Source: Paludibacteraceae bacterium
GTDB lineage: Bacteria; Bacteroidota; Bacteroidia; Bacteroidales; Paludibacteraceae
Direction: 5' to 3'
Length of the DNA: 56,721 bases
NCBI GenBank assembly: GCA_024693065.1
Contig: JAILLP010000030.1
Coordinates: 1-56,721 of the forward strand
Positions 1-41,864 of this stretch are shown here, piece after piece (the stretch's first letter is position 1; every line of letters starts with the position of its first letter). The position numbers were made by a program, and so were the translations under genes. A model generated the notes under the pieces. The model was given only the letters and a program-made list of their open reading frames with translations. It was not told where the DNA came from and made no database searches.

Positions 1-215
1 ACTCAATCGCAACCGGCTCAGAGGTGGGCAAGTACGGCATGACCTTCACGAAGGATGATTTCGAGAACCTGAACCACAACTTCGGAACTGTTAACATAAC
101 GGTTGTGGAGGATAGCATGGAGAGACCTCCAAGCGCAGTAAACGTGACCATCACGAAGCACGGCCGAACGCATGACTACGATGGTCAGGAGCATAGCGTG
201 AGCGGCTACTTCTTT
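1..215 (+). other. Suspect misassembled repeat copy upstream of the adapter
   Basis: Bases 1-116 are identical to 274-389, base for base. From 117 to about 208 the sequence resembles another repeat copy (around 2025-2120) with scattered substitutions. It then breaks off in the middle of the SGYDF motif and runs into the adapter. The true genome probably does not contain this segment in this order. Confidence 0.85.
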
Positions 216-1271
216 AATGATACGGCGACCACCGAGATCTACACCCTTCCCCGGCACGCCGCTCTTCCGATCTACTCAATCGCAACCGGCTCAGAGGTGG
301 GCAAGTACGGCATGACCTTCACGAAGGATGATTTCGAGAACCTGAACCACAACTTCGGAACTGTTAACATAACGGTTGTGGAGGATAGCTTGGAGATTAC
401 TCCAATCACTGTGAACGTGACGATCACGAAGCATGGCTTGACGCAAGACTATGATGGTCAAGAGCATAGTGTGAGCGGTTACGACTTCACCAGCGACAAT
501 ACCTTGTTCGAGAGAAGCGACCTGACCTTCACGGGTGCAGTAAGCGACTCAATTGCAACTGGCACATTAGTTGGCAGGTATGGCATCTCCTTCACGCGGC
601 TCCACCTCGGAACCGCCAGCCCTAACTACACTGAGCTGATCCTCCCGGTTGTGGAGGATAGCTTGGAGATCACACCAATCGCTGTGAACGTGACGATCAC
701 GAAGCATGGCTTGACGCAAGACTATGATGGTCAAGAGCATAGTGTGAGCGGTTATGACTTCACCAGCGACAATACCTTGTTCGAGAGAAGTGACCTGAGG
801 TTCACCGGTACGATAGCCGATAGCACTGCAACTGGTACAACTGTGGGCAAGTACGGTATGACCTTCGCGAAGGACGACTTCGAGAACCTGAACCACAACT
901 TCGGAACTGTTAACATCACGATCGTAGAGGATAGCTTGGAGATCACACCGATTTCTGTGAACGTGTCAATTACGAAGCACGGTCTGACGCATGACTACGA
1001 TGGTCAAGCGCATAGCGTCAGTGGCTACGACTTCGCTAGCGACAATGATCTGTTCGTGAGAGGCGATCTGACCTTCACGGGTGCTGTGAGCGACTCAATT
1101 GCAACTGGCACATTAGTTGGCAAGTATGGCATGACCTTCACGAAGGACAACTTCCGCAACGACAACCCTAACTTCAGCGAGGTGAACATCACGGTTGTGG
1201 AGGATAGCTTGGAGATCAGACCGGTAGATGGTAACGTGGGGAAAGCGAGTAGTGGCTGGTGGGAGGCGTAA
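1..1271 (+). CDS. Giant T9SS repeat protein A, 5' fragment (partial; ends at a suspect in-frame stop)
   Basis: This is the upstream piece of a gene that starts before the window; codons are in frame from base 3. It encodes 91-residue (273-bp) Ig-like repeats with the recurring motifs ITKHGLT, YDGQ.HSVSGYDF, DLTFTG, VGKYGMTFT and VVEDSLEI. They resemble the MBG-type repeat domains of bacterial surface proteins; that family assignment is from memory. The reading frame is the same as that of the 1323-7829 piece, and only the TAA at 1269-1271 separates them. Bases 216-273 are an Illumina adapter, translated as the peptide NDTATTEIYTL and flanking residues. Bases 1-116 duplicate 274-389. Two further stretches (577-645 and 1219-1271) carry clustered substitutions without length change. 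The reliable coding sequence therefore probably starts at 274, and the stop is probably an error. The whole should be treated as one gene with 1323-7829. Confidence 0.75.
   Translation, partial: SIATGSEVGKYGMTFTKDDFENLNHNFGTVNITVVEDSMERPPSAVNVTITKHGRTHDYDGQEHSVSGYFFNDTATTEIYTLPRHAALPIYSIATGSEVGKYGMTFTKDDFENLNHNFGTVNITVVEDSLEITPITVNVTITKHGLTQDYDGQEHSVSGYDFTSDNTLFERSDLTFTGAVSDSIATGTLVGRYGISFTRLHLGTASPNYTELILPVVEDSLEITPIAVNVTITKHGLTQDYDGQEHSVSGYDFTSDNTLFERSDLRFTGTIADSTATGTTVGKYGMTFAKDDFENLNHNFGTVNITIVEDSLEITPISVNVSITKHGLTHDYDGQAHSVSGYDFASDNDLFVRGDLTFTGAVSDSIATGTLVGKYGMTFTKDNFRNDNPNFSEVNITVVEDSLEIRPVDGNVGKASSGWWEA
216..273 (+). other. Illumina P5 / TruSeq universal adapter embedded in the sequence (assembly contamination)
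   Basis: Bases 216-244 equal the 29-nt Illumina P5 flow-cell sequence exactly, beginning AATGATACGGCGACCACCGA. Bases 245-273 match the 29-nt TruSeq read-1 primer part with 5 mismatches and end with the perfect 3' segment GCTCTTCCGATCT. That is 53 of 58 identities with no indel. In frame it encodes FFNDTATTEIYTL and flanking residues, a peptide I recognise as a recurrent adapter artefact in metagenomic proteins. The base after the adapter (274) is where insert sequence would start. Confidence 0.98.
577..645 (+). other. Patch of clustered substitutions in a repeat unit (probable low-quality consensus)
   Basis: Compared with sister units (for example the one ending near 1200), this stretch keeps the exact length and frame but differs at many scattered positions, mostly towards C or G. 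The flanks on both sides are almost identical to the sister units. The affected protein segment replaces the usual GMTFTKDNFRNDNPNFSEVN with an unrelated-looking string. The pattern suits low-quality reads better than natural divergence. Confidence 0.7.
1219..1271 (+). other. Patch of clustered substitutions creating an in-frame TAA stop
   Basis: Aligned without gaps to the preceding unit, I count 28 differences in 53 bases, 15 of them changes to G. The flanks are nearly perfect matches. The last change turns the conserved Tyr codon TAC of the DYDG motif into TAA at 1269-1271. The coding frame is unchanged on both sides. A consensus error is the simplest reading; a real nonsense mutation would not need 27 neighbouring changes. 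Confidence 0.75.
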
Positions 1272-1322
1272 GATGGCAAAGCGCATAGCGTCAGTGGTTA
1301 CGACTTCACCAGCGACAATGGC

Positions 1323-4300
1323 TTGTTCGTGAGAGGCGATTTGACCTTCACGGGTGCAGTAAGCGACTCAATTGCAACTGGCACATTAGTTGGCAAGTAT
1401 GGCATGACCTTCACGGAGAGTGATTTCCGCAACGACAACCCTAACTTCAGCAATGTAGTCATCACCGTCGTGGAGGATAGCTTGGAGATCACACCGATTT
1501 CTGTGAACGTGTCAATTACGAAGCACGGTCTGACGCATGACTACGATGGTCAAGAGCACAGCGTCAGTGGTTACGACTTCGCTAGTGACAATGACTTGTT
1601 CGTAAGAAGTGACCTGAGGTTCACTGGCTCGATAGCCGATAGCACTGCAACTGGTACAACTGTGGGCAAGTACGGTATGACCTTCACGAAGGACGACTTC
1701 GAGAACCTGAACCACAACTTCGGAACTGTTAACATCACGGTCGTGGAGGATAGCTTGGAGATCACACCAATCGCTGTGAACGTGACAATTACGAAGCACG
1801 GTCTGACGCATGACTACGATGGTCAAGCGCATAGCGTCAGTGGTTATGACTTCGCTAGCGACAATGACTTGTTCGTGAGAGGCGATTTGACCTTCACGGG
1901 TGCAGTAAGCGACTCAATTGCAACTGGCACATTAGTTGGCAAGTATGGCATGACCTTCACGAAGGACAACTTCCGCAACGACAACCCTAACTTCAGTGAG
2001 GTGAACATCACGGTTGTGGAGGATAGCTTGGAGATTACTCCAATCACTGTGAACGTGACGATCACGAAGCACGGTCTGACGCATGACTACGATGGTCAGG
2101 AGCATAGCGTGAGCGGCTACGACTTCGTGAGTGGCAATGACTTGTTCGTGAGAAGTGACCTGAGGTTCACCGGTTCGATAGCCGATAGCACTGCGAAAGG
2201 CACTGAGGTGGGCAAATATGGCATGACGTTCACGAAGGATGACTTCGAGAACTTGAACCCTAACTTCAGCTCTGTTGTTATCACAATTAAGGAGATTGAT
2301 AGTTTGGTAATCACTCCAATTTCTGTGAACGTGACGATTACGAAACATGGCTTGACGGAAGAGTATGACGGTCAGGAGCATGGCGTGAGCGGTTACGACT
2401 TCTTGAGCGACAATGACTTGTTCGTGAGAAGCGACTTGAGGTTCACAGGCACGATAGCTGACAGCACTGCTGTGGGAACCGAGGTGGGCAAGTACGGTAT
2501 GACGTTCACGAAGGATGACTTCGAGAACCTGAACCATAACTTCGGAACTGTTAACGTGACGGTTGTGGAGGATAGCTTGGAGATCTCTTCGATCCCAGTA
2601 CGTGTCACGATTACGAAACATGGCTTGACGGAGGCATACGATGGTCAAGTGCATAGCGTGAGCGGCTACGACTTCTCTTGTGATAATGCATTGTACCTGA
2701 GGAATTACCTGAAGTTTACGGGTGCGCCATCCGATAGCATCGCAAGCGGTACGGTTGCTGGCAAATATGGCATGACGTTTACGGCGACGGACTTTGAGAA
2801 CACGAACTCTAACTTCAGCAATATCATCGTGACAATCGTTGAAGACAGCTTAGTGATTACACCAATCACGGTGAACGTGACGATTACGAAACATGGCTTG
2901 ACGCATGAATACGATAAGAACTATCATTATGTGAGTGGTTATGATTTCGAAAGTGATAATGCTTTGTACGTGAGGGAAGATCTGGTGTTCTCTGGTTGGT
3001 GGAACGATACGATTGCGAGTGGCATGGGTGTCGGTAAGTATGGCATGCTGTTCTCAAAATATGACTTCGAGAATACGAATCATAATTTCGATAACGTAGT
3101 CATCACCGTAGTGGAAGATAGTTTGGAGATCATTCCTATCTCTGCGAATGTGACGATTACGAAGCATGGTCTGACGACATCATACGATGGAAAGGTTCAT
3201 ACGGTGCGTGGATATGATTTCGAAAGCGACAATGAGTTGTACTTGCGTGAATTCCTGCTCTTTACGGGTGAGGCTTCTAGCTATGAGGCTTCTGGTTCTG
3301 CCGTTGGCAAGTACGGTATGTCGTTTACGGAGAATGACTTCCGAAACACGAATAAGAACTTCACGAACATAGTTGTGAGAGTGGTGGAGGATAGCTTGGA
3401 AATCTTGCCGATCGATGTTGTCGTGAAGATCACAGGAAATGCATTGAGCGTGGATTACGATGGTAACCCTCATACGGTAAGCGGTTATGCGTGGACCAGC
3501 GACAACGAGCTCTACATCCAGGAGGGTACATTCTCCTTCTCGGGTGATAGCCTCATGACGCAAACAGAGCCTGGCGCTTATGCCTTTGGCTTGAATGACA
3601 CGGACTTCACCAATACGAACCCTAATTTCGGTAATGTTACATTTGAGGTGGTTGCCGATGGCCAATTGATCATCAATAAGCTTGATGTGAAATGCCCTAA
3701 TGATAGCGAGAATATCCTGATCGAGGCATGCTCTAGCTTGACTTGGACGGATGTTGAGGACTCCTTGATGAAGCGTGGCATGACCCCTGTCGCTTCCTAC
3801 GCTAACTTCGCCACAAATGATACGGTTAGCCTTGCGCCTTCTGTCGTGAAGTGCATGGTGGATGGCTCGAATAGTTGGAAAAACATCGGCGCTAATTCCA
3901 CCCTCGAGTATAACAAAGACTTGACCATCCGATGGATCTATAAGAGCGAGTACAACGCTAACCCTAAATTGGATTCTTGCGAGTTGAATATTATCTTGAA
4001 GGATACGACGCTTCCTCTCTTCGATTGCGGTGGCATCGACCCTGACACGTTCAAGGCTGTCGTCGATGGCGGTTGTGATATTCCTTACAAGGAGTTGAAC
4101 TTTAACACTTACCAAGCGGACGATAACTGTGGTGGAAAATTGGATGGTATCCTCTCTTGGACGACCAACCTGGCGGATAGCGTGAAGGCTAACGACAGAT
4201 TTAAGGTGGGTGTTCCGTACGAGCTGCATTGGGTATTCCAGGACGCTACGGGCAACAAGGTGACTTGCGCTCAGTCCATGTCGTTGATCTCTAACGTTCC

Positions 4301-7300
4301 TCCGATTTCAGATTGTGACGTCCGTTACAAGACGATTTCGAAGGTGGCCGCTGGCGTTTGTGAATTGCCAGCCGACGAGATGAACATCAAAGCGCCTGAC
4401 GCTTACGAGGTTTGCACGAATGAGCCTGCGTATGGCGTGGGTAGAAGATCGAGTGGTCGTGGCATGGATGACCCATATTCCGTTGGCCGTGACACCATCG
4501 TCTGGACGTATACCAGCGAACACACAACGGGCATCTCCTTCTGTGAACAGTATGTCGTTGTGAAGAGCGATTTGCCGCCAGTCGCTAACTGCGACTCCTT
4601 GAAGGATGCGGTGATCACGAAGATGATTGCGGGTGCGTGCGAGACTTCCGCCGCATCGATGGCGATCCAAACCCCTGTCGCATTCGACCCTTGCACGAAG
4701 GAACCGTTGTATGGCGTGGGACAAAGAAAGAGTGGATATGGCATGGAGGATCCTTACTTCGTTGGACATGATACGATCGTCTGGACCTTCACGGGCGAGT
4801 ATACGACGGGTGTCACCACTTGCGAACAATATGTCTTCGTACAAAGCGATTTGACGCCTATCGCCAACTGTGACTCTTTGAAGGAAGCGGTCATCACGAA
4901 GGTGATCGCCGGTGCGTGCGAGACCTCCGCGGCTTCGATGGATATCCAAACCCCTGTGGCGCTTGAGGCTTGTACGAATAACCCATTGCAAGGCGTGGGA
5001 CGCAGAACGAGCGGTCGCTCGATGGATGACCCTTACTTCGTGGGCCATGATACCATCGTCTGGACCTTCACGGGCGAGTATGCGACGGGTGTCACCACTT
5101 GTGAGCAGTATGTCTTCGTCCAAAGTGATCTGAAGCCGCTCTTCGATTGCGCTTCATTGAAGGATACGGTGGTTTATCTGGCCGCAGACCAATGTGCGAC
5201 GGCTGAGGGTCAAGTGATCTTGCCTACACCTGTTGCCAAGGATGCTTGCGTGGATATGGATCTCATCGGTTCGTTTAACAGGAATGGATTGTCGCCTGAG
5301 ACCTCTTATCCTAAGGGTGAGACGGTCGTTGATTGGGTGTTCACCAGTCCTTACAGCGTGGCTTCCCTGACTTGTCCTCAACGTGTGATCGTCAAGGATA
5401 CGATCGCTCCTACGCCTGATTGCGGCGCTTTGGATACGATCCGTGCATATATCACCAACAATACATGGTTCCAAGACCATCTCATCTACGACGAGGTGGT
5501 TGCCGCCGGACTCTCCACCCCTGTTTGGGAGGATGATTGCGATAGCTTGATATACGTGTTGGGCCGCTTCGAGGATGGCACTCCTTACCAAGGCAACTAT
5601 GAAATGGGTGAGAAGACCATCGTCTGGAAGTTCACTGATTTGTCGGGCAATTCATCCACTTGTACACAGGTTGTCCTAGTATTGGATTCCTTGGTGGATT
5701 CGTTGACTTGCCCGAACCGATTGGATGGTACGGTCTATGCATGTCTGGATGAGGTGCCTGCTCCATATGGATCCTATGCGGATATTAAGTACGCCGGTGG
5801 CTGGTTCTCTACGGAATCTAAGTTGTTGGAGGATTCCTATACCACTGCGGACCGCCTCGAAGGGGATTCTTGCATGATGACCATCTATAGGACATACATG
5901 ATGAACGATGTCAGGGGTAGGGAATATACTTGTATGGATGTGATGACAGTGAAAGATACCATCGCTCCTAAGTTCTCCCGTATCCTGAAGGATACCCTCC
6001 TCACTTGCCAGGATACCATCTTTGACCCTGTTCAGATTACTGCTAAAGACAACTGTGGCGAGGAGGTGAAGGTTACCTTTACCGAAACGAATAAGCGTGG
6101 CTCGAACCCTGATTCGGCGAACTATTACAGCTACGACATAGAGCGTCTCTACGAGGCGGTTGACCGTTGCGGCAACTATACTTCCATGAAACAGGTGGTG
6201 ATGATGCGTGATACGACGCCTCCTGTCATCAACGTGGCCAACAACTGGCGCGACACGTCTCTCCCGAAACCTCTGAAGGGTTGTGTCTATGAGGTGCCTG
6301 ACTACACCATGGATGTGTTGTCCATGGTATACGACGACTGCTCCGAGCCTTCCGTTATCAAGGCTTCCCAGAACCCTCCGGCAGGTACAATGATCGATGT
6401 CTCCACCAACGTCTGGATCCGCGTCACGGATGTTAGCGGCAATGCGGATAGTGTCGCCAAGTACTTGATGGTACAACGCAGACATGAGATCGTCTCTGTG
6501 ATAGCAGAATCGAGGGATACCTGCGTTATCCAAGACCAGGGTCTGACTCTCGCCAGCCAAGACATCCGTTATGCGAGCGGTAGGGTGGCCTACGAGAGAG
6601 CGAATGGAACAATCCGTCTCATACCTAGTGTGTTCTGCTACGATTATTACTTGGGTGATGTTGCTCCTGAGAATGTTATTTATAGTGATAACCCACGCAC
6701 CTATGCTTCTCAGTTCTCGGATCTTGTCTCGATGTATGGCTCTAAGCTTGAGGCTGCCACGGAGTTGACGAAGCTCTACCGCCATTCTCAAAGCGGATTC
6801 TATTCGTTTGTGGTGATGGATACGACAACGGGATGCTCCGATACCGCTAGGGCGTACATCAACTTGTTGGAACGTCCTAAGGTTAACTTGAACGTCGCTC
6901 CGATCTCCGTCTGCGAGGGATTTGAGGTGGATCTGAACCAATATGTGCGTTGTGTGGACGATATGGGTGATCCGATCACTGACCAATACTGGATTGTGGA
7001 CGGCAACATTGTTCGCAGAGAAGATACATTGAGGGCTTCTGCCGACTTGGAGGGCAAGTCTGCCGTATACTACGTGGAGAATCGATGCGGTTCCACCACT
7101 TCTCTCGATTCGCATGTGATGCTCTCCTGCGATGATAAGAACTTGACCACGGAAGACTCTCTCCTCTATTTGGATGGCGATACGATGGCTTTGGAGATGT
7201 TACGCTTGAATGACTTGTTAGCGATGGATTCGCTCAAGTTCGATGTCCACCGTCGTCTGAATCCGGATGATGTCTCCATCGTCGCTACTCCAGGAAATCC

Positions 7301-7829
7301 TTCCCGTATCTGGCAAGGCGAATCTATCCGTCTTGATCTGAAGACGAGCCAACCATACCAATACCTCGTGTGGAAGAAGGTGGTGCGCAAGTATGATATG
7401 CGTGACTACGATGTCCTGAGGGATGAGGGCTTCTTCTTCGACAATGAGCCGAGGGAAATCGAAGACGAGGTGGTTGACTACTCGGGTCGCCCTTACTTCA
7501 TCGACGAACCGAAGGATACCACGTTCTATTATGCGACCCTCTCCGATGGTATCTGCCCTGAGACTTCTTCCCCTGTCGTGGAGGTGGATGTCTTGGATCA
7601 TGTGCCGACCGCCTTCACGCCTCATGATCAGGATGGTATGAATGATGTCTTCATGGTGGGTCATGAGGTAATCATCTACGACCGGTATGGTAACAAGGTG
7701 TTCGAAGGTCCGAACGGATGGCCGGGCACTCGCTTGGGCAAGATGGTTGAGCCTGCGGTATACTTCTATGATGTGAAGATGGCGAACGGTGTTTGGATGC
7801 AGGGTACGATTGAAGTGGTTAAGTTTTAG
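1323..7829 (+). CDS. Giant T9SS repeat protein A, main part: MBG-like repeats, HYR-like modules, gliding-motility C-terminal domain
   Basis: The open frame runs from 1272, just after the stop; the first start-like codon is the TTG at 1323, which is unlikely to be a true start because the gene continues from upstream. Counting from 1323 there are 2168 residues. Residues 1 to about 790 are further 91-aa MBG/Ig-like repeats, increasingly diverged towards the end. Residues about 790-1000 hold cysteine-containing HYR-like modules with DNCGG motifs. Residues about 1000-1270 hold three units of 92-93 aa (CDSLK, VGxDTIVW, CEQYV motifs) plus a shorter relative. The last 75 residues match the gliding-motility-associated C-terminal domain: PTAFTPHDQDGMNDVF, then IYDRYGNKVFEG, WPG and PAVYFYDVKM. 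This predicts export by the T9SS and surface anchoring or release. The second half is clearly paralogous to the neighbouring giant gene. Its role is probably adhesion or gliding; this is inferred from architecture only. Confidence 0.85.
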   Translation: MFVRGDLTFTGAVSDSIATGTLVGKYGMTFTESDFRNDNPNFSNVVITVVEDSLEITPISVNVSITKHGLTHDYDGQEHSVSGYDFASDNDLFVRSDLRFTGSIADSTATGTTVGKYGMTFTKDDFENLNHNFGTVNITVVEDSLEITPIAVNVTITKHGLTHDYDGQAHSVSGYDFASDNDLFVRGDLTFTGAVSDSIATGTLVGKYGMTFTKDNFRNDNPNFSEVNITVVEDSLEITPITVNVTITKHGLTHDYDGQEHSVSGYDFVSGNDLFVRSDLRFTGSIADSTAKGTEVGKYGMTFTKDDFENLNPNFSSVVITIKEIDSLVITPISVNVTITKHGLTEEYDGQEHGVSGYDFLSDNDLFVRSDLRFTGTIADSTAVGTEVGKYGMTFTKDDFENLNHNFGTVNVTVVEDSLEISSIPVRVTITKHGLTEAYDGQVHSVSGYDFSCDNALYLRNYLKFTGAPSDSIASGTVAGKYGMTFTATDFENTNSNFSNIIVTIVEDSLVITPITVNVTITKHGLTHEYDKNYHYVSGYDFESDNALYVREDLVFSGWWNDTIASGMGVGKYGMLFSKYDFENTNHNFDNVVITVVEDSLEIIPISANVTITKHGLTTSYDGKVHTVRGYDFESDNELYLREFLLFTGEASSYEASGSAVGKYGMSFTENDFRNTNKNFTNIVVRVVEDSLEILPIDVVVKITGNALSVDYDGNPHTVSGYAWTSDNELYIQEGTFSFSGDSLMTQTEPGAYAFGLNDTDFTNTNPNFGNVTFEVVADGQLIINKLDVKCPNDSENILIEACSSLTWTDVEDSLMKRGMTPVASYANFATNDTVSLAPSVVKCMVDGSNSWKNIGANSTLEYNKDLTIRWIYKSEYNANPKLDSCELNIILKDTTLPLFDCGGIDPDTFKAVVDGGCDIPYKELNFNTYQADDNCGGKLDGILSWTTNLADSVKANDRFKVGVPYELHWVFQDATGNKVTCAQSMSLISNVPPISDCDVRYKTISKVAAGVCELPADEMNIKAPDAYEVCTNEPAYGVGRRSSGRGMDDPYSVGRDTIVWTYTSEHTTGISFCEQYVVVKSDLPPVANCDSLKDAVITKMIAGACETSAASMAIQTPVAFDPCTKEPLYGVGQRKSGYGMEDPYFVGHDTIVWTFTGEYTTGVTTCEQYVFVQSDLTPIANCDSLKEAVITKVIAGACETSAASMDIQTPVALEACTNNPLQGVGRRTSGRSMDDPYFVGHDTIVWTFTGEYATGVTTCEQYVFVQSDLKPLFDCASLKDTVVYLAADQCATAEGQVILPTPVAKDACVDMDLIGSFNRNGLSPETSYPKGETVVDWVFTSPYSVASLTCPQRVIVKDTIAPTPDCGALDTIRAYITNNTWFQDHLIYDEVVAAGLSTPVWEDDCDSLIYVLGRFEDGTPYQGNYEMGEKTIVWKFTDLSGNSSTCTQVVLVLDSLVDSLTCPNRLDGTVYACLDEVPAPYGSYADIKYAGGWFSTESKLLEDSYTTADRLEGDSCMMTIYRTYMMNDVRGREYTCMDVMTVKDTIAPKFSRILKDTLLTCQDTIFDPVQITAKDNCGEEVKVTFTETNKRGSNPDSANYYSYDIERLYEAVDRCGNYTSMKQVVMMRDTTPPVINVANNWRDTSLPKPLKGCVYEVPDYTMDVLSMVYDDCSEPSVIKASQNPPAGTMIDVSTNVWIRVTDVSGNADSVAKYLMVQRRHEIVSVIAESRDTCVIQDQGLTLASQDIRYASGRVAYERANGTIRLIPSVFCYDYYLGDVAPENVIYSDNPRTYASQFSDLVSMYGSKLEAATELTKLYRHSQSGFYSFVVMDTTTGCSDTARAYINLLERPKVNLNVAPISVCEGFEVDLNQYVRCVDDMGDPITDQYWIVDGNIVRREDTLRASADLEGKSAVYYVENRCGSTTSLDSHVMLSCDDKNLTTEDSLLYLDGDTMALEMLRLNDLLAMDSLKFDVHRRLNPDDVSIVATPGNPSRIWQGESIRLDLKTSQPYQYLVWKKVVRKYDMRDYDVLRDEGFFFDNEPREIEDEVVDYSGRPYFIDEPKDTTFYYATLSDGICPETSSPVVEVDVLDHVPTAFTPHDQDGMNDVFMVGHEVIIYDRYGNKVFEGPNGWPGTRLGKMVEPAVYFYDVKMANGVWMQGTIEVVKF
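4308..5140 (+). repeat. Three tandem 276/279-bp HYR-like units in gene A
   Basis: Equivalent Cys codons lie at 4314, 4590 and 4869, giving spacings of 276 and 279 bp. Each unit has four cysteines around CDSL, a GxCE motif, a CT(K/N)EP-type motif and TCEQYV. A degenerate fourth unit follows at about 5140-5400. The unit is homologous to the 93-aa repeat that is amplified 18-fold in the next gene. Confidence 0.85.
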
Positions 7830-8002: not shown

Positions 8003-8179
8003 CCAGCAATTTGGGAATTTAGGTATTTGGTGTGCTCGTCAGTTTGATTGTGTATTGGTGAAAAAACTTGAAAATCAACCGATTACTTGATTCCGATGTG
8101 ATATTGATGTTTATGATTGTTTCGTCTTGATTTTAGTCGTTTTCTGTCGGACGGGGCATGGAAAAATTATAATAGGAAT

Positions 8180-11100
8180 ATGAGGCGTTTATTAGCTGGA
8201 AATTTGTTTTTGAAGTTCTTTTTTGTAACTCTTTTTATCTCTTGGGAATTGTGTGCTTCGGCGCAGGTCATATCAGGACCTACTGAAGCTTGTGTGGATG
8301 ACCCGGTTGCGTTTGAGGTGACTGATCGTGGACCAATCGCTCCTGCTGAACCTTTGCAGTGGTGGATTTCGAAGGGTGATAGGAACCATTACGAGGCGTA
8401 TAAGCAGACTCGGCGAAATAGAATGGTGCTGAATGCGATGCCTAACCAAGAACAAATTTATGTGATGGTCACGAAAGTGGGCGACGATAAACCTGAAAGA
8501 GGTACGGATGATAGTCGAAAAAAGGTGTCGTTGAAAACAAGTGGTTGTCGTGACATGCAGTGCCAAGAGACCGCCACGGGAGATTATTATTTCGGAACGG
8601 ATTTCACCCCGAAGTATGGTGGTACAAACCAAGAATTTACCGGAGATCCGAACCAGTTGGTTAATTATTTCCCGAATGAGGTGTATGTGGGTAAGCAAAC
8701 TAACGCATATTCGTTCAATTTAAGGACCACGGAGGATTTGATAGCTAACCGAGATGTTCCGACGGGCTTTTTGCCACAAACGGAAGTCTCCAATTATTAT
8801 CTGGATGTGGATTTGACGAAGTGTGATGGTGAACCTTATCCTTTTCAAGTGAATTTTACCGACCCTTATTATAAAGTTGGTACGACAAAACTCTCTTTTA
8901 ACATATTGATTAGAGCTTATTTGTACATTGGTTGTACCACTACCCAGGAATATAAGGTAAAGTTTGAGGGTAACTATGGAACTGAAGTGGCCAATGTGGA
9001 AGCCGCCATCTATGTCTTGGACATGAATACGGGGAATGATTATTATTACGCAACGAATAGTAATAGACAACCTCAAATGTCTATGACTGGTAGAAATATA
9101 GACGGTGTGGTTAACCCAGGTCAAGGAACTGGAGTTTTGAAGGGTGAACAGTTGCTGCCTGGTCATATGTATCGTATTGACATGATCTATTCTGGAAAGT
9201 TCACAGGTCAGCGACAATCCTTCGGTTTCCAGCCTAAATTTTTCACTTCTAACAAAAAGGAGTGTAAAGAAGGTAATCGTTTGTTAATCGACTACATCAG
9301 TTATGAGACGGAGGCGGTGTGTGTGACTCCTCGTCTTGCTTGTGTGGGAGATGCCGTGTTGGTGAATACGGCGGGTTTCCCTGCAATGTCTGATATTGAC
9401 TGGTACAAGAAAGTTGGGAATAACTTTGCCCCAATACCTAATCCGGAGGTGACGTATGTGCTTACGAATGGTAGGAAGAAACAGGCTTATATTAAGTTGA
9501 TGAATTGGGGTGTGACTACATACCGAGTTCAATCTTCCTCTCATTCTTCTACTTATGTTGATTTCGATCTTACGGGTGAGGATTGTGATGATGTGTTGCA
9601 TCCGCTCATATCGGGTACGGACCCTGTCTGTGCTGGAGGTGGACTGGCTGTGACTTCCCAATATTTCGTTACGAACAAGGATGCCCTTAAGTTCATGGAA
9701 GGAAGTAAGGAATACCATTGGACATTGACTGCTCCGAGTGGTGCTGATGTCACTGAATATATCACTTCTCAGGAAGGCCCGGAGTATGACCGAATCGCCA
9801 TTACTTTCCCACCGGATGCGGAGGGAAGCGACCGTTTGGATTTACCATATGTCATCACCATGGTGCCTCATGTTGGGGGATTCGCACATGATGAATTTAA
9901 AGTTTCCAAGGAGATCTATTTGAGAATGATACCTGACTTGTCAGGTTTGACCATGGAAGCCGAACCGATTTGTCCGGGTGTGCCGGATGTGACTACCGCA
10001 ACGGTAAAGGGAATTGAGTCTGTGACAGATCAGTCTCCTGATTATACCTATAGTTGGAAAATCATGAACAATACTTATTCAACCAATAGTTCATCTTTCC
10101 GACCTGATCCAGTATTTGAGGTGCCGCTGACTCCTCATACGAATTTCTGTACCATTACGGAGGATGCGAATTTCCCTTGTACTTTCATTGTGAACAACCA
10201 TGGTTGTGAGGCTTCCATTACGGAAAATGTACTTGTCCAAAAAATGGATGATCCGTATTTCGTCAGGTATGGTACTCGTCTGAAACCTGACTCTATCCTG
10301 GAGGAAATCCGTTCTGTGAATCAGAATTGTAAGGCTGAGGGATATTATCTGGACACCGCGAATTCCTATGTGTTCTGCGGAGAAAAGACGGTTACCGTGG
10401 AGTTCTCCCACGAAGGTGGCGCATATGTCAATTATACGGATAGCATACATAAAAATCTTACAATGGATAAGGGTGTGAACCTTTTCCGGGTTACGGTTAC
10501 GGATGCGTGCGGTAATACGGCAAGATATTATAACAAGGTTTTGGTCAATGACTATACCCCTCCGACCATTACGTGTCCAAACAATGTGACACTTTATCCT
10601 GTAAATGAGTGTGATACTATTTGGAAAATCGTGCCTGCCGTGGCTACAGACAATTGCGATGAACCGATCCTTAAGTATCGTATTGATAACGATCCAACGT
10701 GGGAGGAGTTTTATGCGGGTGATGTAATACAACTGGATCAGGGTTCGTATACGTTCCATTGGCAGGCTTCCGACCTTTCAAACAAGGCTAGCGTCTGTTC
10801 GACTCGAGTCGTTGTCGCGGATTCGGTGAAACCTATCATTAAAATTAATACATCCAACGACCCGAATGGCGCTTGTAACCCGTACATCGTTGCCCCTACG
10901 TTCGTGGCTGAGGATAACTGTACTCCTTCGAATGAAATGACCGTGGAAGTGACGTCCCCAGGCGAGGAAATCACAACCGGTTGTATGTACACCCAGACAT
11001 GGGTGGCGAACGTGAAGGATGCGAGTGGCAACAAGGCGGATTCGGTGGCGGTCACTTATACCTGGAAGCAGGATCTCATACCTCCTACCATGACGGGCAC

Positions 11101-14100
11101 ATTGCCTGATGTGACGGTGTATGGCTGTTCTGTCTCAGATGCCTCTATACCTGATCCTGTTACCTCCATCGCTGCTTTAGAGGCGTTGGCTGATGGACTG
11201 GATGTCAGTGACAACTGTACCGCGGATGCTGATCTGACTATTTCCAGTTCGGATGCTGCCCCTGTAGGTTCTTGCCCTGTCGTGGTGGTGCGTACCTATA
11301 GAATCACGGATGAGTGTGGCAAGTATAAGGACTTTAACCAAAACATTTATATTCAGCAAGCTGACTTCAGTATGCCGGTTAATCGGGATACTAATGTTAG
11401 TTGTCCTGCGGATGTCGTTTCTCCGCGCTTGCCTGAAGTGAAGGATGCCTGTGGACATGTGCTTGAGCCTACTGACTCGGTGATCGGTGCGAAGCCGACC
11501 TGTACCGGGGATGTGGTTTACCGATATACTTATGAGGATTGCGCAGGGAATAGCCATGACTGGACATTCACCTATCATGTGATCCTCCCTACGTTTAATC
11601 TGGAACCTGATGGCGCTTTGACCGTTCATTGCGCATCGGAGATAGATCCTCCGACACCTCCTGTCATGAAGGATTTCTGCGGAAGGACGCTCACCGTTCC
11701 GTCGCCAACGGTTAATCCTACAACTTTCCCTTCGTGTGAAGGAACGGTTACCTATACGTACAATTACGTGGATTGTGCGGGTAATGAGAAACCTTGGAAG
11801 TTTGTCTATACGATCGAGAAGAGGGCTCCTGTGATCGATTCGGACGGGTTCGCTACTTCTAGGAACATCTCTTGTATCACCGATACCGCCGCTTTGGCTT
11901 CGAACATGGTTCCTACTGCCGTTAATGATTGCGGTGTGGCGGTGACTCCTACACTGTCGAAATCTTATAGTTGGGAGGATGGTAAGGAGTTCTGTAAGGG
12001 TACAATCTCTTATGTCTATACTTATACCGACTGCGGTAAGTCCAGCACATGGACTTACCAATATGTTTTGAATGACAATGTGAAGCCTGTATTCACTTGC
12101 CTCCCTGACGTTTCGAAAACTATCTCGAAATGCCGCGACACAATTGAGTTGACTGCTCCAACGGTCTCAACTCCTTGTACGAGTGTCTCCATCTCCTATA
12201 GGATTAATGATGGTGAAATCCATCCTTACACCGCGCCGTTCGACCAGAATTTCGAGTTGGGTACGACGACCGTGCATTGGTATGCGGTCGATGCTTGCGG
12301 CAATGAGGCGGCGGAGTGTTCCGTGACTTATGAAATCAAGTATAAGCCTGGCTTCGACACGAAGTGTCCTGTCGATCCGAATCTCGTGATAGAAGGTTGC
12401 GACAATCTGACATGGAGCGATGTGAAGACTCATTTGACGGGCGATTATGCTGCGTCTGTCACCAGTACGGAATGTCCGAGCGGGAATACGAAAGTCATAT
12501 CTCCTGTTTTCTACTACAAGAAAGATAACGAGGGGGAGAGCTCTTATGTGGCGTTGACGGACGCCTCCGTCTTCCTCTTCGATGTGAAATACGATCTGAA
12601 ATGGCTCTTCGTTTATGAAGGGGAGAACTTGGAGACTGTGGAGACCTCTTGTTTCTCTACTGTCCTCTTGACCGACACGACTGCTCCTGTGATGAATTGC
12701 GACGCGATTACTTCTGACACATTGCGTCCTTTGGGGTGTGATACGCTCTATAAGTTGATCCCTCCTAAGGGTGTATTCAGTGACGCATGTACAGAGGAGG
12801 ATGATTTGAGATATCTCTTCTATTTGGATAGAACGGGTCCGTTCTACTATGAATTCGATCAAATCGTTTACCGCTTGTCAAGCGGTTCGCACTGGGTTTC
12901 ATGGGCGAGTGTCGATAAACATGACAATTGGTCCGACACGTGTGGCCACGCCATCATTGTGATGGATGTCAACCCGCCTGTCATCACTTGCGCTCCAGTG
13001 GAAAACCTCACCTTGGAGGTGCGTGGTAATCATTGTGACACAACCTTCAACCTCAGTTCTCCTGAAGTGAAGGATTCCTGTGGGGTGGCTGCCGTTTACT
13101 ACAAACTGGCGGATGGCGTGGAGCATCTCTACGACTCCATAACCGCCGCGAATAATAGTGTTACCTTCCCTGTGGGTACGTCTGTCGTTCGGTGGTATGC
13201 GAAGGATGCTTCGGGAAATGTTTCGGATACCTGCAGAAGCACTTATACGGTGAGGGACATGGCGAAACCATCCATCACATGTCATTCTGACACGAGCATC
13301 AAGCTACGCTTGCATTGCGACTCTCTGATCACACTGGATGTGCCTGAGGCGAGCGATAACTGCTCTTACCAATTGTATTACAAGATTGGAACTGGCAGCG
13401 AGAAACTTTATACGACTACGGTTCAGGAAACCTTCCGGTTGGGATCCACAACTGTCACTTGGCGTGCGGTGGACCCTTCCGGTAACGAGGCTACCTGCAC
13501 AACTACCTATACGTTGTCTGATAGCTCGGGCGTGCATATCGTCTGCCCTAAGAACCCGGATTTGCTTATTGAAGTATGTGAGGATCAGCCGTGGAGCGAG
13601 GTGAAGACCCGTTTGACGGGCGACTATGCCGCTTCCGCTAAATACATGGATTGCCAAAACGGTGACAGTATCGTGATTGAACCTGCCTTCTTCTACAAGG
13701 AACAATCCCAGGCTGAGAACGCTTATGTGGCTCTGACGGACGCCTCTAACTTTAAGATGGACGTGAAGTATGACTTGAAGTGGTTGTTCGAGAAGAGTGG
13801 CGGTATCCTGGAGACGGTGAAGGATTCTTGCTTCTCGACGATACTCTTGACCGACACGACCGCACCGGTGGCGAACTGTGCCATCGTGATGCCGGGTCTT
13901 GAACCTCATGGGTGTGACACGTTGTACCTCTTGGAGGCTCCGGACACCGCATTCCACGACAACTGTACGCCTAGTGACGAGCTTGTTTATTGGTACCGTG
14001 TCGATACAAGTGATTTCGTGAATTATGCGGATAGAGTGAATGACAATAAGGTTATCCTTTCAATAGGCGATCATGTTGTTTATTGGTATGCGGTTGATAA

Positions 14101-17100
14101 ACATAACAATGTTTCGGACACTTGCTCTTATACGTTGACTGTGAAGGACATCCTTCCTCCGACGATTCTATGCGATGCGGTTGTCCTTCCTACGTTGAAT
14201 GTTACGCAAAGTTGTGACACGACCTTCAAGGTCGGAGCTCCGACTGTGACGGATTGTGATACGTTCCATGTTTACTATAAACTGGGCGATGGCGTGGAGC
14301 ATCTCTATACCGACTCCTTCAATGTCACCTTCGCTGTGGGCGACACGTTGCTGAAGTGGTACGCGAAGGATACGACGGGTAATGTCTCCGACACCTGTGT
14401 GAAGGAGTACACGGTGAGGGATGTTGCGGCTCCTGTTTTCGATTGCCCTGCCGACACCTCCTTCATGCTCTATCATAGTTGTGATACGACCATGCGCATA
14501 TTCTTCCCGAATGTGACCGATAATTGTAAAGTGACGAGACGCACCTATAGCGTGAACGCTGGCGCTGAGCAGGATTACACGGGAAATGATCTGGTTAAAT
14601 TTGAGTTGGGAGTGACCACCATCACGTGGTTCGCTTACGATGCTTCCAACAATAAGAAGGATTGCTCACGTGCCTATACGGTGACGGATAACACGAGCAT
14701 CACCAAGACTTGCCCAGCGGAGGATGATGTGACCATCAATACTTGTACGGATATGACTTGGGGTGAGGTCTTTGCCCTCTACACGAATGCGCAGAAGGCT
14801 ATCGCGACTCGCCTGAACTGTGCGAACAACGGTGAGGCCATCCATATCGATCCGATCATGCGCTACAAGGCGAGCGACGCTTCGAACGATGCGTATGCTC
14901 CGCTTCTTGATAAAACGGTTTTGACCTACAATGTCTCCTACGATATCCGTTGGGTGTTCGAGAAGAGCGGAACGAACATGGAGGAGATCCATGACAGCTG
15001 CGACAGCAAACTCATCCTCAAGGATACGAGCGTGCCTACGATGGATTGCTCTAAGATCGAGGATATTGTCCTGAAACCGATCACTTGCGATTCTGTTGGT
15101 TATCAGTTCGAGAAGCCTGCGGGTGTCTTCGATGACAATTGCGGCGAGGGGAACCTCAAATACTTCTTCAAACTGGACGATGACGCTACCTTTACGGAAC
15201 TTGCGGCCGCATCGCCTCGCACCGTCACGAACGGTTCCCATACCATCGTGTGGAAGGTGCAGGATCAGATCGGCAATGAGTCCGGCGAGTGTAGCCAATC
15301 TCTGACGGTGCTCGACACCATCGCTCCTGAGATGACATGCCCTACCGATACGACGGTGAAGGTGTTGGCCGGATGCTCCATCACGCTTGACCTCCCTGTC
15401 GCTACCGCTACGGATGCCTGCGGCGAACCGAAGGTGTTCTTCTCCTTCGACGGTGTGTCGTTCACTCAGTTGGGCGCAACCTTCAACCATACGCTTCAGG
15501 TGGGCGATACGACCATCTATTGGTACTCGGAGGATATCCACAATAACTTGACTGACACGTGCCACTATAAGGTGACCGTCCTGGATACCATCGCTCCTAC
15601 GATCACTTGTCCGAGCGATATCTCCATCTCTTTGACCACCGGTTGCGAGACGGATGTGGAGTTCGGTCCTGCCACGGCGGAGGACAACTGCGAGGTGCAG
15701 ACGATCTACTACTCGTATGATAATGCCTCATTCACGGCTTTGCCTACGCTCACCTCTTCCGTGACGAAGAACTTCGCGGTGGGTGACTATACGGTTTATT
15801 GGTATGCGGAGGATAACCATGGTGTTCTTTCCGACACCTGCAAGCAGAAGATCTCCATCTTGGATGACCATACCTTCGATATCAACTGTCCTCCATACTC
15901 GGGCGCTGATCCATTCATCGTGGAGACCTGCACCGAGTTGCCTTGGAAGGACTTGAGCGATAGCCTCTCCAAACTGAATATGAACGCTTCCGCTTCCTAT
16001 ACGGACTGCAAGACGAAGGTCGAGACTCCTATCGATAGCATCATCATGAAGTATTCTGTGAAGGGTTCCAATACTTGGACGCTCTTGAATGATGACGATA
16101 AGATTCCTTACAATACGCCTTACGTGATCCGTTGGGTCTTCGTGAAGGCGGGCGACAATCTCGTGACGAAGGCTGACTCCTGCGAGCTCCCTGTCTTGCT
16201 GAAGGATACGACGGTGCCTTTCTTCAACTGCGACGACATCGATCCTGATTCGGCTGTGGTGGTTGCTGACAGTGTCTGCGAATTGCCTTACAAGGATATT
16301 ACCTTGAATACCTATACGGCTACTGATAACTGCGATGGCGACATCGTCGGTATCCTCTCCACGTCGACGAACCTCGCCGACAGCGTGAAGGCGGAGGATG
16401 TCTTCAAGGTGGGTACGCTCTATAATCTCTATTGGATATTCCAGGATAAGACGGGCAATAAGGTTTATTGCGACCAGAAGTTGATGCTGAATACCAACTT
16501 GAAACCTGTCTTCAACTGCGACTCTTTGAAGAATAGCCCGATTGAGAAGATGTTGGTGGGCACTTGCGACACTGACTCCACATCGTTGGGCATCGTGACG
16601 CCTATCGCTTATGACGCTTGTACGAAGGACCCTATCCCTGGTGTCGGTCATAGAAAGAGCGGCTTGGCGATGAATGGCACGTATAGCGTCGGCCGTGACA
16701 CCATCGTTTGGGTATTCCAAAGCATCTATTCAACATCGCTTGATAGTTGTGAACAATATATCTTTATCCAAAGCGATAAGGAGCTTGAGTTCGATTGTGA
16801 TTCGTTGAATAAAGCTGTGATCGACACCGTCCTGAGTGGTGTGTGCGAAATCAGCGCCGCAGACCTGAAGGTGAACACTCCGTTCGCCATCGATGTTTGT
16901 ACGAAGGATACGATCTTGGGTGTGGGTGTGCGCAAGAGCGGTAAGGCAATGACCGATCCGTATCTCGTGGGCCGTGACACCATCGTCTGGACCTTCACCA
17001 GCGAATATGCGAAGAACTCAGTTGTCTGTGAACAATTTGTCTATATCAAGAGCGACTTGGAGCCGGTGTTCAATTGCGACTCTTTGAAGAACACTCCGAT

Positions 17101-20100
17101 CGATACCGTCCTGAGTGGCGTGTGCGAGATCAGCGCCTCTGATTTGAAGGTGAACACACCGTTCGCCCTCGATGCATGTACGAAGGATACGATTTGGGGC
17201 ATCGGTACCCGCAAGAGCGGTCGTGCGATGACCGAGCCTTATCCTGTGGGCCGTGACACGATCGTTTGGAAGTTTGTCAGCGAATACTCTACGGCTGAGG
17301 TTGAATGTGAACAATATGTATTCATCCAAAGTGACATGGAGCCTACGTTCAATTGCGACTCTCTGAAGAACAGCCCGATCGAGCGTGTCCTGCATGAAGT
17401 CTGCGAAACGGATTCTGTTGGAATGAAGATCACGGTTCCGTTTGCCCTCGACGCTTGTACGAAGGATACGATCTGGGGCGTGGGCACGAGAACGAGCGGT
17501 GAACCGATGGGCGGCATCTACAAGGTGGGACGTGACACCATCGTCTGGAGGTTCGTCAGCGAATATTCTACAGCGGTGGCTGAATGTGAACAATATATCT
17601 ATATTAAGAGCGATAAGAAACTTGAGTTCGATTGCGACTCGTTGAACAATGCTCCGATCGAGCGGGTATTGCATGATGTTTGCGAAATCGACTCTGCTGG
17701 AATGAACTTCACGGTTCCGTTCGCCCTCGACGCTTGCACGAAGGATACGATCTGGGGTGTTGGTGTACGCAAGAGCGGTGAGCCGATGGGCGGTATCTAC
17801 AAGGTGGGTCGCGACACGATCACCTGGACCTTCATCAGTGAGTACTCCACCGATACGGTGGTCTGCGACCAATATATCTTCATCCAGAGCGACAAGGCGC
17901 TTGAGTTCGATTGCGACTCGTTGAAGAATTCACCGATCGAGCGTGAGTTGGATGGTGTCTGTGAAATCGATTCCGCTGGACTGAACCTCACGGTTCCGTT
18001 CGCCCTCGACGCTTGTACGAAGGATACGATCTGGGGCGTGGGCGTACGCAAGAGCGGTGAGCCGATGGGCGGTATCTACAAGGTTGGCCGCGACACGATC
18101 ACCTGGACCTTCATCAGCGAGTACTCCACCGATACGGCTATCTGCGATCAGTATATCTTCATCCAGAGCAACTTGAAACCTAAGTTCGATTGCGACTCGT
18201 TGAAGAATTCACCGATCGATACTGTGTTGAACGGTGTCTGTGAAATCGATTCCGCTAGTTTGAACTTCCAAGTTCCGTTCGCCCTCGATGCTTGTACGAA
18301 CGATACGATCTGGGGTGTGGGCACCCGCAAGAGTGGTCTGCCGATGGGCGGCGTTTACAAGGTGGGTCGCGATACCATCGTCTGGGTGTTCGACAGTGAA
18401 TATTCTACGGCTAACGACACATGCGAGCAATATATCTATATCCAAAGCGATATGAAGCCTAAGTTCGATTGTGACTCTTTGAAGAACGCACCGATCGAGC
18501 GTGTCTTGGAGGGTGTCTGTGAAATCGACTCCGCTGGACTGAATATGATTGTGCCTTTCGCTTTGGACGTATGTACGAATGATACGGTCTGGGGTAAGGG
18601 TACCCGCAAGAGCGGTGAGCCGATGGGTGGCATCTACAAGGTGGGCCGTGATACCATCGTTTGGGTATTCGACAGCGAATATTCTACGGCTAACGATACT
18701 TGCGAGCAGTATATCTACATCCAGAGCGACTTGAAGCCTAAGTTCGATTGCGATTCTTTGAAGAACGCGCCGATCGATACGGTGTTGCATGGTGTTTGTG
18801 AGATCGACTCGGCTGGTTTGAACTTCACGGTACCGTTCGCTCTCGACGCTTGTACGAACGATACGATCTGGGGTAAGGGCACACGTAAGAGCGGTGAGCC
18901 GATGGGCGGCGTCTACAAGGTGGGCCGTGACACGATCGTTTGGGTATTCGACAGCGAATATTCTACGGCTAACGATACTTGCGAACAATATATCTTCATC
19001 CAGAGTGATTTGACTCCTAAGTTCAATTGCGACTCGTTGAAGAACTCACCGATCGAGAAGGTCTTGGACGGTGTGTGCGAAATCACGCCTGCGGACTTGG
19101 GTGTGAAGACTCCGTTCGCTTTCGACGCTTGTACGAACGATACGGTATGGGGCGTCGGCGAAAGAACGAGCGGTCGCTCGATGACCGACACTTATGTTGT
19201 TGGCCCTGATACCATCGTATGGAGATTCATCAGCGAATTCTCCGTTGATACGGCCATTTGTGAGCAATATGTATTTATCCAAAGCAACAAGGGCATTGAG
19301 TTCGATTGCGACTCTTTGAAGAATGCTCCAATCGAGAGGGTGCTCCATGGTGTCTGCGAGGTGGATTCCGCTACCTTGAACTTCCAAGTTCCATTTGCGA
19401 TGGACGGTTGTACGAACGATACGGTATGGGGCGTGGGCACACGCAAGAGTGGTCTGCCGATGGGCGGCACCTACTACGTGGGTCGTGACACGATCGTCTG
19501 GAGGTTCTCCAGCGCCTATACGACGGAGGATGTTCTCTGTGAACAATATATCTTCATCCAGAGCGATTTGACTCCTATCTTCGACTGCGACTCGTTGAAG
19601 AACAGTCCGATCGATACGGTGCTCCACGGTGTCTGCGAGATCGACTCCGCAGGACTGAACTTCCAAGTTCCGTTCGCCCTCGATGCTTGTACGAAGGATA
19701 CGATTTGGGGCGTGGGCGTTCGTAAAAGCGGTGAGCCGATGGGTGGCACCTACAAGGTGGGTCGTGACACCATCGTCTGGACATTCGACAGCGAATATTC
19801 TACAGAAAATGCTGTTTGTGAGCAATATATCTTCATCCAAAGCGATCTGGCTCCTCTGTTCGACTGTGATTCTCTGAAGAACAGTCCAATCGATACGGTG
19901 CTGCATGGTGTGTGTGAAATCGACTCTGCTAGCTTGAACTTCCAAGTTCCGTTCGCCCTCGACGCATGTACGAAGGATACGATTTGGGGTGTGGGTGTTC
20001 GTAAGAGCGGTGAGCCGATGGGCGGCATCTACAAGGTGGGACGTGATACTATTGTTTGGACATTCGCTAGCGAATATGCTACCGATACGGCTGTCTGTGA

Positions 20101-23100
20101 GCAATATATCATCATCCGAAGCGACATGGCTCCTAAGGTTGATTGCGACTCTTTGATGAACAACCCAATCGATACGGTGCTTCATGATGCTTGTGAGATC
20201 AGCGCTGCTGACCTGCATATCAACACACCGTTTGCCCTCGATGTCTGCACGAACGATACGGTTTGGGGCGTGGGCGAAAGGAAGAGTGGCTTGAGCATGA
20301 CCGATAACTTCCGTGTGGGACGTGATACGATCATCTGGCGTTTCATCAGCGAATTCGCTACCGATACGGCTATTTGTGAACAACCGGTATTCATCCGCAG
20401 CGACAAGAAACTCCAGTTCGATTGTGACTCTTTGATGAACTCTCCTGTGGAGCGTGTGTTGGAGGGCGTCTGCGAAATCTCTGCTGCTGACCTGAACCTT
20501 GAGGTTCCTTATGCTATCGATGCTTGCACGGATCAGAAGATCTATGGCGAGGGCGTCCGCAAGAGCGGACGTGGCATGGATGAGTCGTATGTCGTGGGCC
20601 GTGACACGATCGTCTGGACATTCATCAGTGAATATTCCACGGATACGGTTGTCTGCGAACAATTCGTTTATATCCAAAGCGACATCAAACCAGTATTCAA
20701 TTGCGACTCCTTGAAGCAGGAGGTTGTGGAGAAAGTACTGGAGGGTGTTTGCGAGATCAGTGCGGCTGACCTGAACATCGCTACGCCGATCGCTCATGAC
20801 GCTTGCACGAATGAGCCTATCCCTGGCGTTGGTACCCGCAAGAGCGGACGTGCCATGGATGACCCTTATGTGGTCGGCCGTGATACCATCGTCTGGGTGT
20901 TCGACAGCGAGTTCTCTACGCAGAACGACACTTGTGAGCAATATGTCTTCATCCAAAGCGACATGAAGCCTAAGTTTGATTGCGACTCGTTGAAGAACGA
21001 TCCGATCAAGAAGGTGCTTTCAGGTGTATGCGAGATCTCTGCGGCTGACCTGAACGTGAACACACCGTTCGCCCTTGATGTTTGCACAAACGACACGGTA
21101 TGGGGCGTAGGTACACGCAAGAGTGGCAAGGCGATGACGGATAGCTACGTTGTCGGAAATGATACGATCGTTTGGGTGTTCGATAGCGAATACTCTACGA
21201 ACAATGATACTTGTGAACAATATGTATTCATCCAAAGCGATCTGGAACCTAAGTTCGATTGCGACTCGTTGAAGAACGCTCCGATCGAGAAGGTGCTCCA
21301 TGGCGTCTGTGAGATCTCTGCGGAGGATATGGATATCGATACACCGTTCGCCCTCGACGCTTGTACGAATGATACGATCTGGGGCGTCGGCACAAGAAAG
21401 AGCGGACGCGCGATGGATAGCTCTTACGTTGTGGGTCATGACACCATCGTATGGACCTTCACGAGCGTCTACTCGACGGCTGTGGCGGAGTGCGAACAAT
21501 ATGTCTTCATCCAAAGCGACTTGGAGCCTAAGTTCGATTGCGACGAGTTGACGGATACGACCTTGTACCTCGCTATGGACAAGTGCGAGATTCCTGCTGG
21601 ACAATTGATATTGCCTACGCCTGTGGCGAAGGACGCTTGTACGGACGATGATGTGCCGGGCGATCCTACCCGTGATGATGGACTCACGTTGTCTGACGCT
21701 TACCCTGTCGGGACGACTACGGTGACGTGGACGTTCATCAGCCCATACAGTACGACTCCGAAGGTCTGCGAGCAACATGTGATTGTGAAGGATACGATCG
21801 CACCTGTTCCTCATTGCGAGGATCTGGATACGATTCATGCGGATATCACCGCCACTTCTGTCAGCAAGAATTTCACCACTTACGAAGAGGCTGTCGCCGC
21901 TGGCTTGGTGGCTCCTACGTTGGATGACCTTTGCGACGGTGTGATCACCGCTACAGGTCTTCGCGAGGATGGCTCTGCGTTGGAGGGCAACTTCGAAATC
22001 GGTTTGACAACCATCGTATGGACGTATACTGATAAGTCAGGCAACTCAAGCACTTGTACGCAGATTGTACAAGTGGAGGATCATGGCACGGATACGCTCT
22101 TCTGCCCTGGCGATCTTGACGGCAAGGTATTCGCTTGTGTCGAGGACATCCCTGCTGGCTACGACTCCTTCGAGGCGTTCAAGGATGCGGGCGGTTCCTT
22201 CACTACGGAGTATAAGATTGTGGACGGATCATTCCGCTATACGGACACTTATCAAGGCGATTCCTGCTCAATGATCGTGACCAGAAAATATCAGGTGACG
22301 GATACAAGGGGTGATATCGATACTTGCGAGGAGGTTATCTATATCAGGGATACCATCGCTCCAGTATTCGACTTCGTCTTGCGTGATACCACTCTCTCTT
22401 GTGAGGACTCTATCTTCAACCCTATCACGGTGACGGCTACCGACAATTGTGGCAAGGATGTTCGTGTCGAGATGGTGGAGAGCAACGATAGGGGCAAGGA
22501 TCCTTCCTCTTGCGACTACTTCAATTACAACATCAAACGTGTCTACTTTGCATATGATCGATGCGAGAATGTGGATTCCATGATCCAGATCATTGCAATC
22601 CGTGACACGACGGGTCCTACGTTCACTTATCCGGACGGATGGCGCGACACTGTCTTGGCTAAGTCGTTGAAGGGTTGTTTGTTCGAGGTGCCTGATTTCA
22701 CTCTGGATGTGAAATCTATGGTGAACGATAATTGTACGGAAATAGAAAACCTTACTATTTCCCAGAACCCTCCAGCTGGCTCAACTATCCAAAGCTCTAT
22801 GTGGGTATGGGTGCGCGTCTCCGATAAGTGTGGTAACACGGATAGTGTCGCTAAGTATGTGAGAGTTCAGTCTCCTAGCGCGATTGTCTCTTTGGATGCC
22901 TTCTCCACGGATACTTGTGTGACCGACGAGGTGGGTGTCTATTTGGCGAGCCAAAGCATACGTTTCGCTTCAGGTTATGTGGAGCAAGTGATGTATAATG
23001 GCAGAATCCGTAAACTTCCTAGTGTGTTCAGCTACGATTACTATAAGGGTTCTATCTCTCACGAGAATTTGATGTACAGTGATAATCCGAAGACCTATAG

Positions 23101-24307: not shown

Positions 24308-24416
24308 TCCTCTAATCGCTTGGGTGATGAATGTTTCCTCTTTTTACTGCAATTTCTTCGATTGAAAAATGGATATAGTGATTTCTTTAGTATAAATGTT
24401 TCTAAATGAAAATGTT

Positions 24417-41812: not shown

Positions 41813-41820
41813 TAAATTTG
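41813..41820 (+). promoter_or_regulatory. Candidate -7 element TAAATTTG for giant gene C
   Basis: It matches TAnnTTTG and lies 44 nt upstream of the ATG at 41865. No clear -33 TTTG at the normal distance. Confidence 0.45.
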
Positions 41821-41864
41821 TGTTTTTGAACGTCGGTGAATGGCTCAGGATTTGTAGTTCGATT

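Follow-up and report, generated by a model that had tools for sequence, protein, structure and literature searches.

Illumina adapter letters blended in register into a tandem repeat gene at a contig start of a Paludibacteraceae assembly

Column-wise mixing of letters at collapsed or under-resolved repeats is a general type of error, and chimeric consensus and over-correction errors in tandem repeats belong to it. A second described class is untrimmed Illumina adapter at contig ends, of the kind covered by VecScreen and UniVec; a passage of the NCBI FCS-GX report names adaptors among common contaminants (PMC10898089). We analysed a window of 56,721 nucleotides (the whole stretch of DNA examined) from a Paludibacteraceae bacterium, the first base of which is also the first base of its contig, and compared it with both classes. 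It shares with untrimmed contig-end adapters the same oligo, the near-end position and the T-rich lead, but differs from them in that tandem repeat is replaced by adapter in exact register and in that at least one further copy is blended so heavily that a BLAST-type search does not list it. It resembles chimeric consensus errors in the column-wise mixing of sources at a collapsed or under-resolved repeat, whereas one of the sources here is the sequencing adapter.

Adapter at 216 to 273 and its register in the repeat array

The trace, its lead and the repeat gene that holds them are located as follows.
216 to 273, forward strand: trace G1, TruSeq universal adapter (P5 and read-1 part), 53 of 58 letters
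210 to 215, forward strand: T-rich lead of G1, TTCTTT; the T at 210 and the T at 211 are absent from all reference units
9 to 2915, forward strand: tandem repeat array with a unit of 273 bp (91 aa); TRF gives period 273, 10.6 copies and 76% matches
3 to 7829, forward strand: host gene, truncated by the contig start, consisting of ORFs 3-1271 and 1323-7829
1 to 116, forward strand: contig start, identical to 274-389 at 116 of 116 letters

The window was compared letter by letter with sequences that we take to be the TruSeq and P5 oligos. The results showed that 216-244 matched P5 at 29 of 29 letters and that 245-273 matched the read-1 part with 5 of 29 letters mismatched (adapter positions 30, 34, 38, 39 and 44), so that the Illumina P5/TruSeq adapter reported here by the first-pass annotation, with its five mismatches in the second half, was reproduced in full. 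On the same strand, the 53 of 58 letters of G1 compare with 31 of 58 at the runner-up place in the window and 30 of 58 at the top of one letter-shuffled window. By source, 33 letters of G1 were adapter only, 20 were common to adapter and repeat, 5 were repeat only and none was neither; all 33 letters absent from the other reference units were adapter letters. Exact P5 occurred once in the genome itself (3,477,266 bases, 37 contigs), and a BLAST-type search of this genome with the whole adapter returned 216-273 at E = 1.8e-17, the other five of the six matches being at chance level (E 0.63 to 2.2). P5 with up to three mismatches was found in none of the 15 same-genus genomes. The only exact match in this genome to the 14-base adapter end was 260-273; at up to two mismatches the same 14 bases gave 24 places, compared with 18 for a reversed control.

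The adapter stretch is open and in frame, and it is translated as ...SGYFFNDTATTEIYTLPRHAALPIYSIATG... The peptide NDTATTEIYTL, quoted earlier as the product of in-frame read-through, proved correct by translation, and the protein from this locus is chimeric, as had been proposed, with adapter letters translated within the frame of the repeat protein. A full-text literature search for NDTATTEIYTL found no paper, and no gene-family meaning was found for this artefact peptide.

We then considered the spacing of the repeat. Units start at 1, 274, 547, 820, 1093, 1366, 1639 and 1912, each 273 bases apart; because this spacing continues across G1, the adapter occupies no additional length. In a register test, the flanks of each trace were compared with six clean units at every shift between -40 and +40 bases. 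The G1 flanks, the left of which lies partly (150-170) inside a tentative further trace, G4, matched 94 of 111 letters at shift 0 and at most 72 at other shifts. The adapter and its T-rich lead replace repeat sequence of the same length in exact register, with no extra insert, and the lead is probably read-through beyond P5 mixed with repeat letters. Given this in-register replacement, reads mapped here may differ from the contig column by column instead of being cleanly clipped at 215/216 and 273/274.

Blended traces and the stop codon at 1269 to 1271

Further adapter letters were found within the array, which contains all four traces, G1 to G4. The traces G3 and G4 are tentative.
1218 to 1275, reverse strand: trace G2, reverse complement of the TruSeq universal adapter, agreeing at 37 of 58 letters and intermixed with the repeat
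1269 to 1271, forward strand: TAA, in frame, inside G2; it ends the first ORF
590 to 647, forward strand: trace G3 (tentative); of 15 letters foreign to the repeat, 12 match the adapter
113 to 170, forward strand: trace G4 (tentative); the 7 letters foreign to the repeat all match the adapter

G2 matched the adapter at 37 of 58 letters, compared with 30 at the next place on the same strand and 32 in one shuffled window, and it was not among the matches of the BLAST-type whole-adapter search of this genome at E up to 10. Of its 21 non-adapter letters, 20 were repeat letters (10.7 expected, P = 5e-6) by comparison with 57 in-register units, of which 6 came from the array itself and 51 from relatives, and 14 of the 15 letters found in no unit were adapter letters. 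When only the six own units were used, 19 of 21 non-adapter letters were repeat letters and 21 of 23 non-repeat letters were adapter letters. In a private-letter scan, which takes the letters of 1-2184 that no other reference unit shares and compares them with the adapter, 16 of the 17 such letters at 1218 matched (P = 2.7e-7). The G2 flanks fitted at 112 of 129 letters at shift 0 versus 94 at other shifts. G2 is a base-by-base mosaic of adapter and repeat.

The ORFs 3-1271 and 1323-7829 share one frame, and a stop-tolerant reading gave a single frame of 2608 residues holding one TAA. Intact relatives exist, and among the matches listed an internal stop occurred in this locus only. We judge the TAA at 1269-1271 to be a false stop that splits one reading frame in two. 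Its third letter, at 1271, comes from neither the adapter nor any reference unit, indicating that the TAA is a further error in the damaged stretch and not adapter as such.

The four best places of the private-letter scan were 216 (33 of 33), 1218 (16 of 17), 590 (12 of 15) and 113 (7 of 7); the fifth overlapped G2 (P = 0.016). With units 1, 547 and 1093 excluded as references, 78 of the 87 private letters in 1-2184 fell inside the four traces and their 12-base tails, which total 280 of 2184 bases. After G1 and G2 had been masked, place 590 was equalled by 12 of 5000 shuffled adapters and place 113 by the best place of 24 of 5000, while none of the 5000 had an equally good second-best place, the measure of G3 and G4 jointly. 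As a control, an adapter-free relative with arrays of 31 and 12 units gave best P values of 0.018 and 0.33 with all reference units and of 0.0041 and 0.037 with five neighbours only; the control minimum under either reference set was thus 0.0041, versus 2.9e-4 and 4.6e-4 in the array studied here. Shift 0 was the best fit at all four traces: the G4 flanks matched 90 of 94 letters versus 77 at other shifts, and for G3, where the best-scoring comparison was of the unit with itself, the next one matched 79 of 83 at shift 0. These results suggest that G3 and G4 are probable adapter traces. Three letters of G3 come from neither adapter nor repeat, and its odd peptide had nothing above 48% identity among the matches listed in 16 genomes of the genus. 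As 12 of 5000 shuffled adapters equalled it when taken alone, G3 might be a naturally odd repeat unit.

Other oligos were also tried. P7, read-2 and Nextera oligos reached scores barely above one shuffled window (best, read 2, 21 of 34 versus 19; the others no more than about one letter above it) and were rejected, and none of the clusters of non-repeat letters within the array was explained by the read-2/P7 oligo (best P 0.012).

Origin of the traces and comparison with other assemblies

We interpret the traces as a sequencing and assembly artefact, in which untrimmed short-insert reads piled up on a hard repeat and letters of both adapter and genome entered the consensus, and we put the probability of this reading at about 0.94. 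As to 216-273 itself, the stretch is almost certainly an artefact of sequencing and assembly with no biological function, and as biology it holds little interest. The adapter identity, the exact register, the existence of G2, its mosaic composition and the stop within it are shown by the letters themselves; how the reads behaved and which software step acted are what we infer. Reads of short-insert library molecules would have run past the insert into the TruSeq universal adapter, then onward into a poly-T linker, and the genomic part of the untrimmed reads, coming from the 273-bp array, would have placed them on the array at the contig end. A letter-by-letter step could then have overwritten repeat letters with adapter letters at unchanged length; pile-up consensus, polishing, read correction and merging of overlapping mates are all candidates, and the data do not separate them. 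Where adapter reads dominated, at 216-273, nearly pure adapter would result, and where votes were mixed, at 1218-1275 and probably also at 590-647 and 113-170, a mosaic.

The contig start was examined in the same way. G1 sits 216 bases into the contig, and base 1 has the repeat phase of base 274, the first after the adapter. The identity of 1-116 with 274-389 is the longest exact in-register run among the units compared (the next is 85 letters), and 171-209 equals unit 1912 at 39 of 39 letters. A contig cut directly after a terminal copy of the adapter, with its first unit assembled from reads of other units, would fit this start.

Adapter remnants were also sought in other genomes. A wildcard-pattern scan of the genome collection gave 124 matches at no fewer than 120 loci; as the pattern fixes the 53 letters other than the five deviating in G1, this sample is a cleaner one and blind to adapters that deviate elsewhere. 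A T-rich lead preceded 119 of the 124 matches (at least one of the remaining five runs out of sequence), and 122 lay no more than 300 bases from an end of the examined stretch. A search with the adapter in 296 genomes taken from the phylum found 13, including the present one, with a match at E of 0.01 or below. Outside this genome, P5 at up to three mismatches was found in 1 of 60 genomes, which carries its own degraded copies. This genome (G031) is of the same family, and its two loci, L147 (G031:C180:4578-4606) and L148 (G031:C223:27-55), hold degraded P5 with three mismatches each and an 8-base index-like stretch ahead of the read-1 part, presumably marking dual-index adapters. Error-rich remnants of 31 of 36 to 50 of 58 letters (L156, L157, L168 and L164) were observed near an end of the stretch examined in three other genomes of the phylum Bacteroidota. 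At a further locus, L163 (G330:C42:23668-23696), exact P5 with a poly-T lead stands 1.5 kb inside the locus and lacks the read-1 part.

The five deviations of G1 bear on a simpler account, in which one low-quality adapter-bearing read was joined whole, its deviations being read errors and its register luck. All five deviations are repeat letters, at P = 0.017 with the six own units and P = 0.15 with the 57; no own unit carries all five (best, four), and three units of one relative do. The A-to-C change at position 44 recurs in two unrelated assemblies (L156 and L164), and L157 and L156 show that remnants matching at 49 or 50 of the 58 letters (8 or 9 errors) do occur near contig ends in two genomes. 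Given this recurrence and the non-significant value for 57 units, some or all of the deviations of G1 are possibly plain read errors. A single read joined whole is nevertheless improbable, at roughly one chance in ten: the 273-bp period is exact across the adapter, the mosaic G2 would be left unexplained, and at the same five positions 121 of the 124 matches elsewhere carry no deviation and 3 carry one, against five here, in a pattern that fixes the other 53 letters.

We also considered that G1 alone is adapter and that the other three traces are repeat units that diverged naturally, the stop in G2 being real. Repeat units do diverge, G3 and G4 are faint, and the third letter of the stop is not adapter-derived; we nonetheless regard this as very unlikely, in view of the 37 adapter letters of G2 against 30 at the next place, the 16 of 17 non-repeat letters that spell adapter there (P = 2.7e-7), the failure of all 5000 shuffles to do as well as G3 with G4, and the lack of any other internal stop among the matches listed. 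That the sequence is a real genomic insertion, or acquired sequence resembling P5, has a vanishingly small probability. Being in frame and open would suit it, against which stand the complete P5 (29 of 29), the read-1 part and the T-rich lead at a single place in a damaged contig end; a natural insertion was ruled out by register together with adapter identity.

Consequences for annotation and the host gene

Under the artefact reading, protein records of this locus are unfit for use as they stand, 204-273 or so being largely adapter, and the ORF break at 1271 in the damaged stretch causes one gene to be read as two. G2 harms annotation more than G1 because it contains the false stop. G1 is caught by a plain adapter screen, and the BLAST-type search listed G1 but not G2; cleaning that removes only near-exact adapter leaves blended traces in repeats, where they can be mistaken for natural variation or pseudogenes. 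The in-register replacement, the blended second trace and the false stop are useful additions to the first-pass annotation.

Blended adapter traces in tandem repeats may form a recurring and largely unscreened class of error in public short-read assemblies, a tentative proposal that we consider somewhat less probable than its opposite. If it were true, such traces would keep length and register, fall below the thresholds of adapter screens and create false stops and falsely 'divergent' units in large surface proteins, and a test of whether the letters peculiar to a single repeat unit spell adapter would reveal them. Among literature titles we found none on adapter letters blended into repeats; that search covered titles only, and we do not claim the idea as unpublished.

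From its domains, the host gene product is predicted to be a secreted surface protein that combines repeats with HYR-like domains and, at its C-terminus, type IX domains. HYR-type domains downstream of the array scored above Pfam cut-offs, and the C-terminal sorting domain matched PF13585 CHU_C at 29.7 bits (cut-off 27). The type B sorting domain TIGR04131 reached 23.8 bits, below its cut-off of 35, so this subtype was not assigned. Matches to Imm15 (22.2 bits, cut-off 22.9) and DUF2334 (20.4 bits, cut-off 26) were rejected. Relatives of the host gene were present in 35 of the 61 genomes searched, including all 15 of the same genus.

One same-genus relative (G009) has a far longer 273-bp array, at L149 (G009:C2:158-9166) and L150 (G009:C32), with 33 and 13 units of at least 70% identity; since it is spread over two contigs, the array breaks that assembly too. 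In the window, a single open frame of 5383 residues (8117-24268) adjoins the host gene, and parts of it match the middle and C-terminal part of the host protein at 46-56% identity. Positions 24396-27338 encode a CotH-kinase protein that carries lamin-tail domains and a T9SS sorting tail of type A, and an open frame of 3271 residues lies at 41820-51635.
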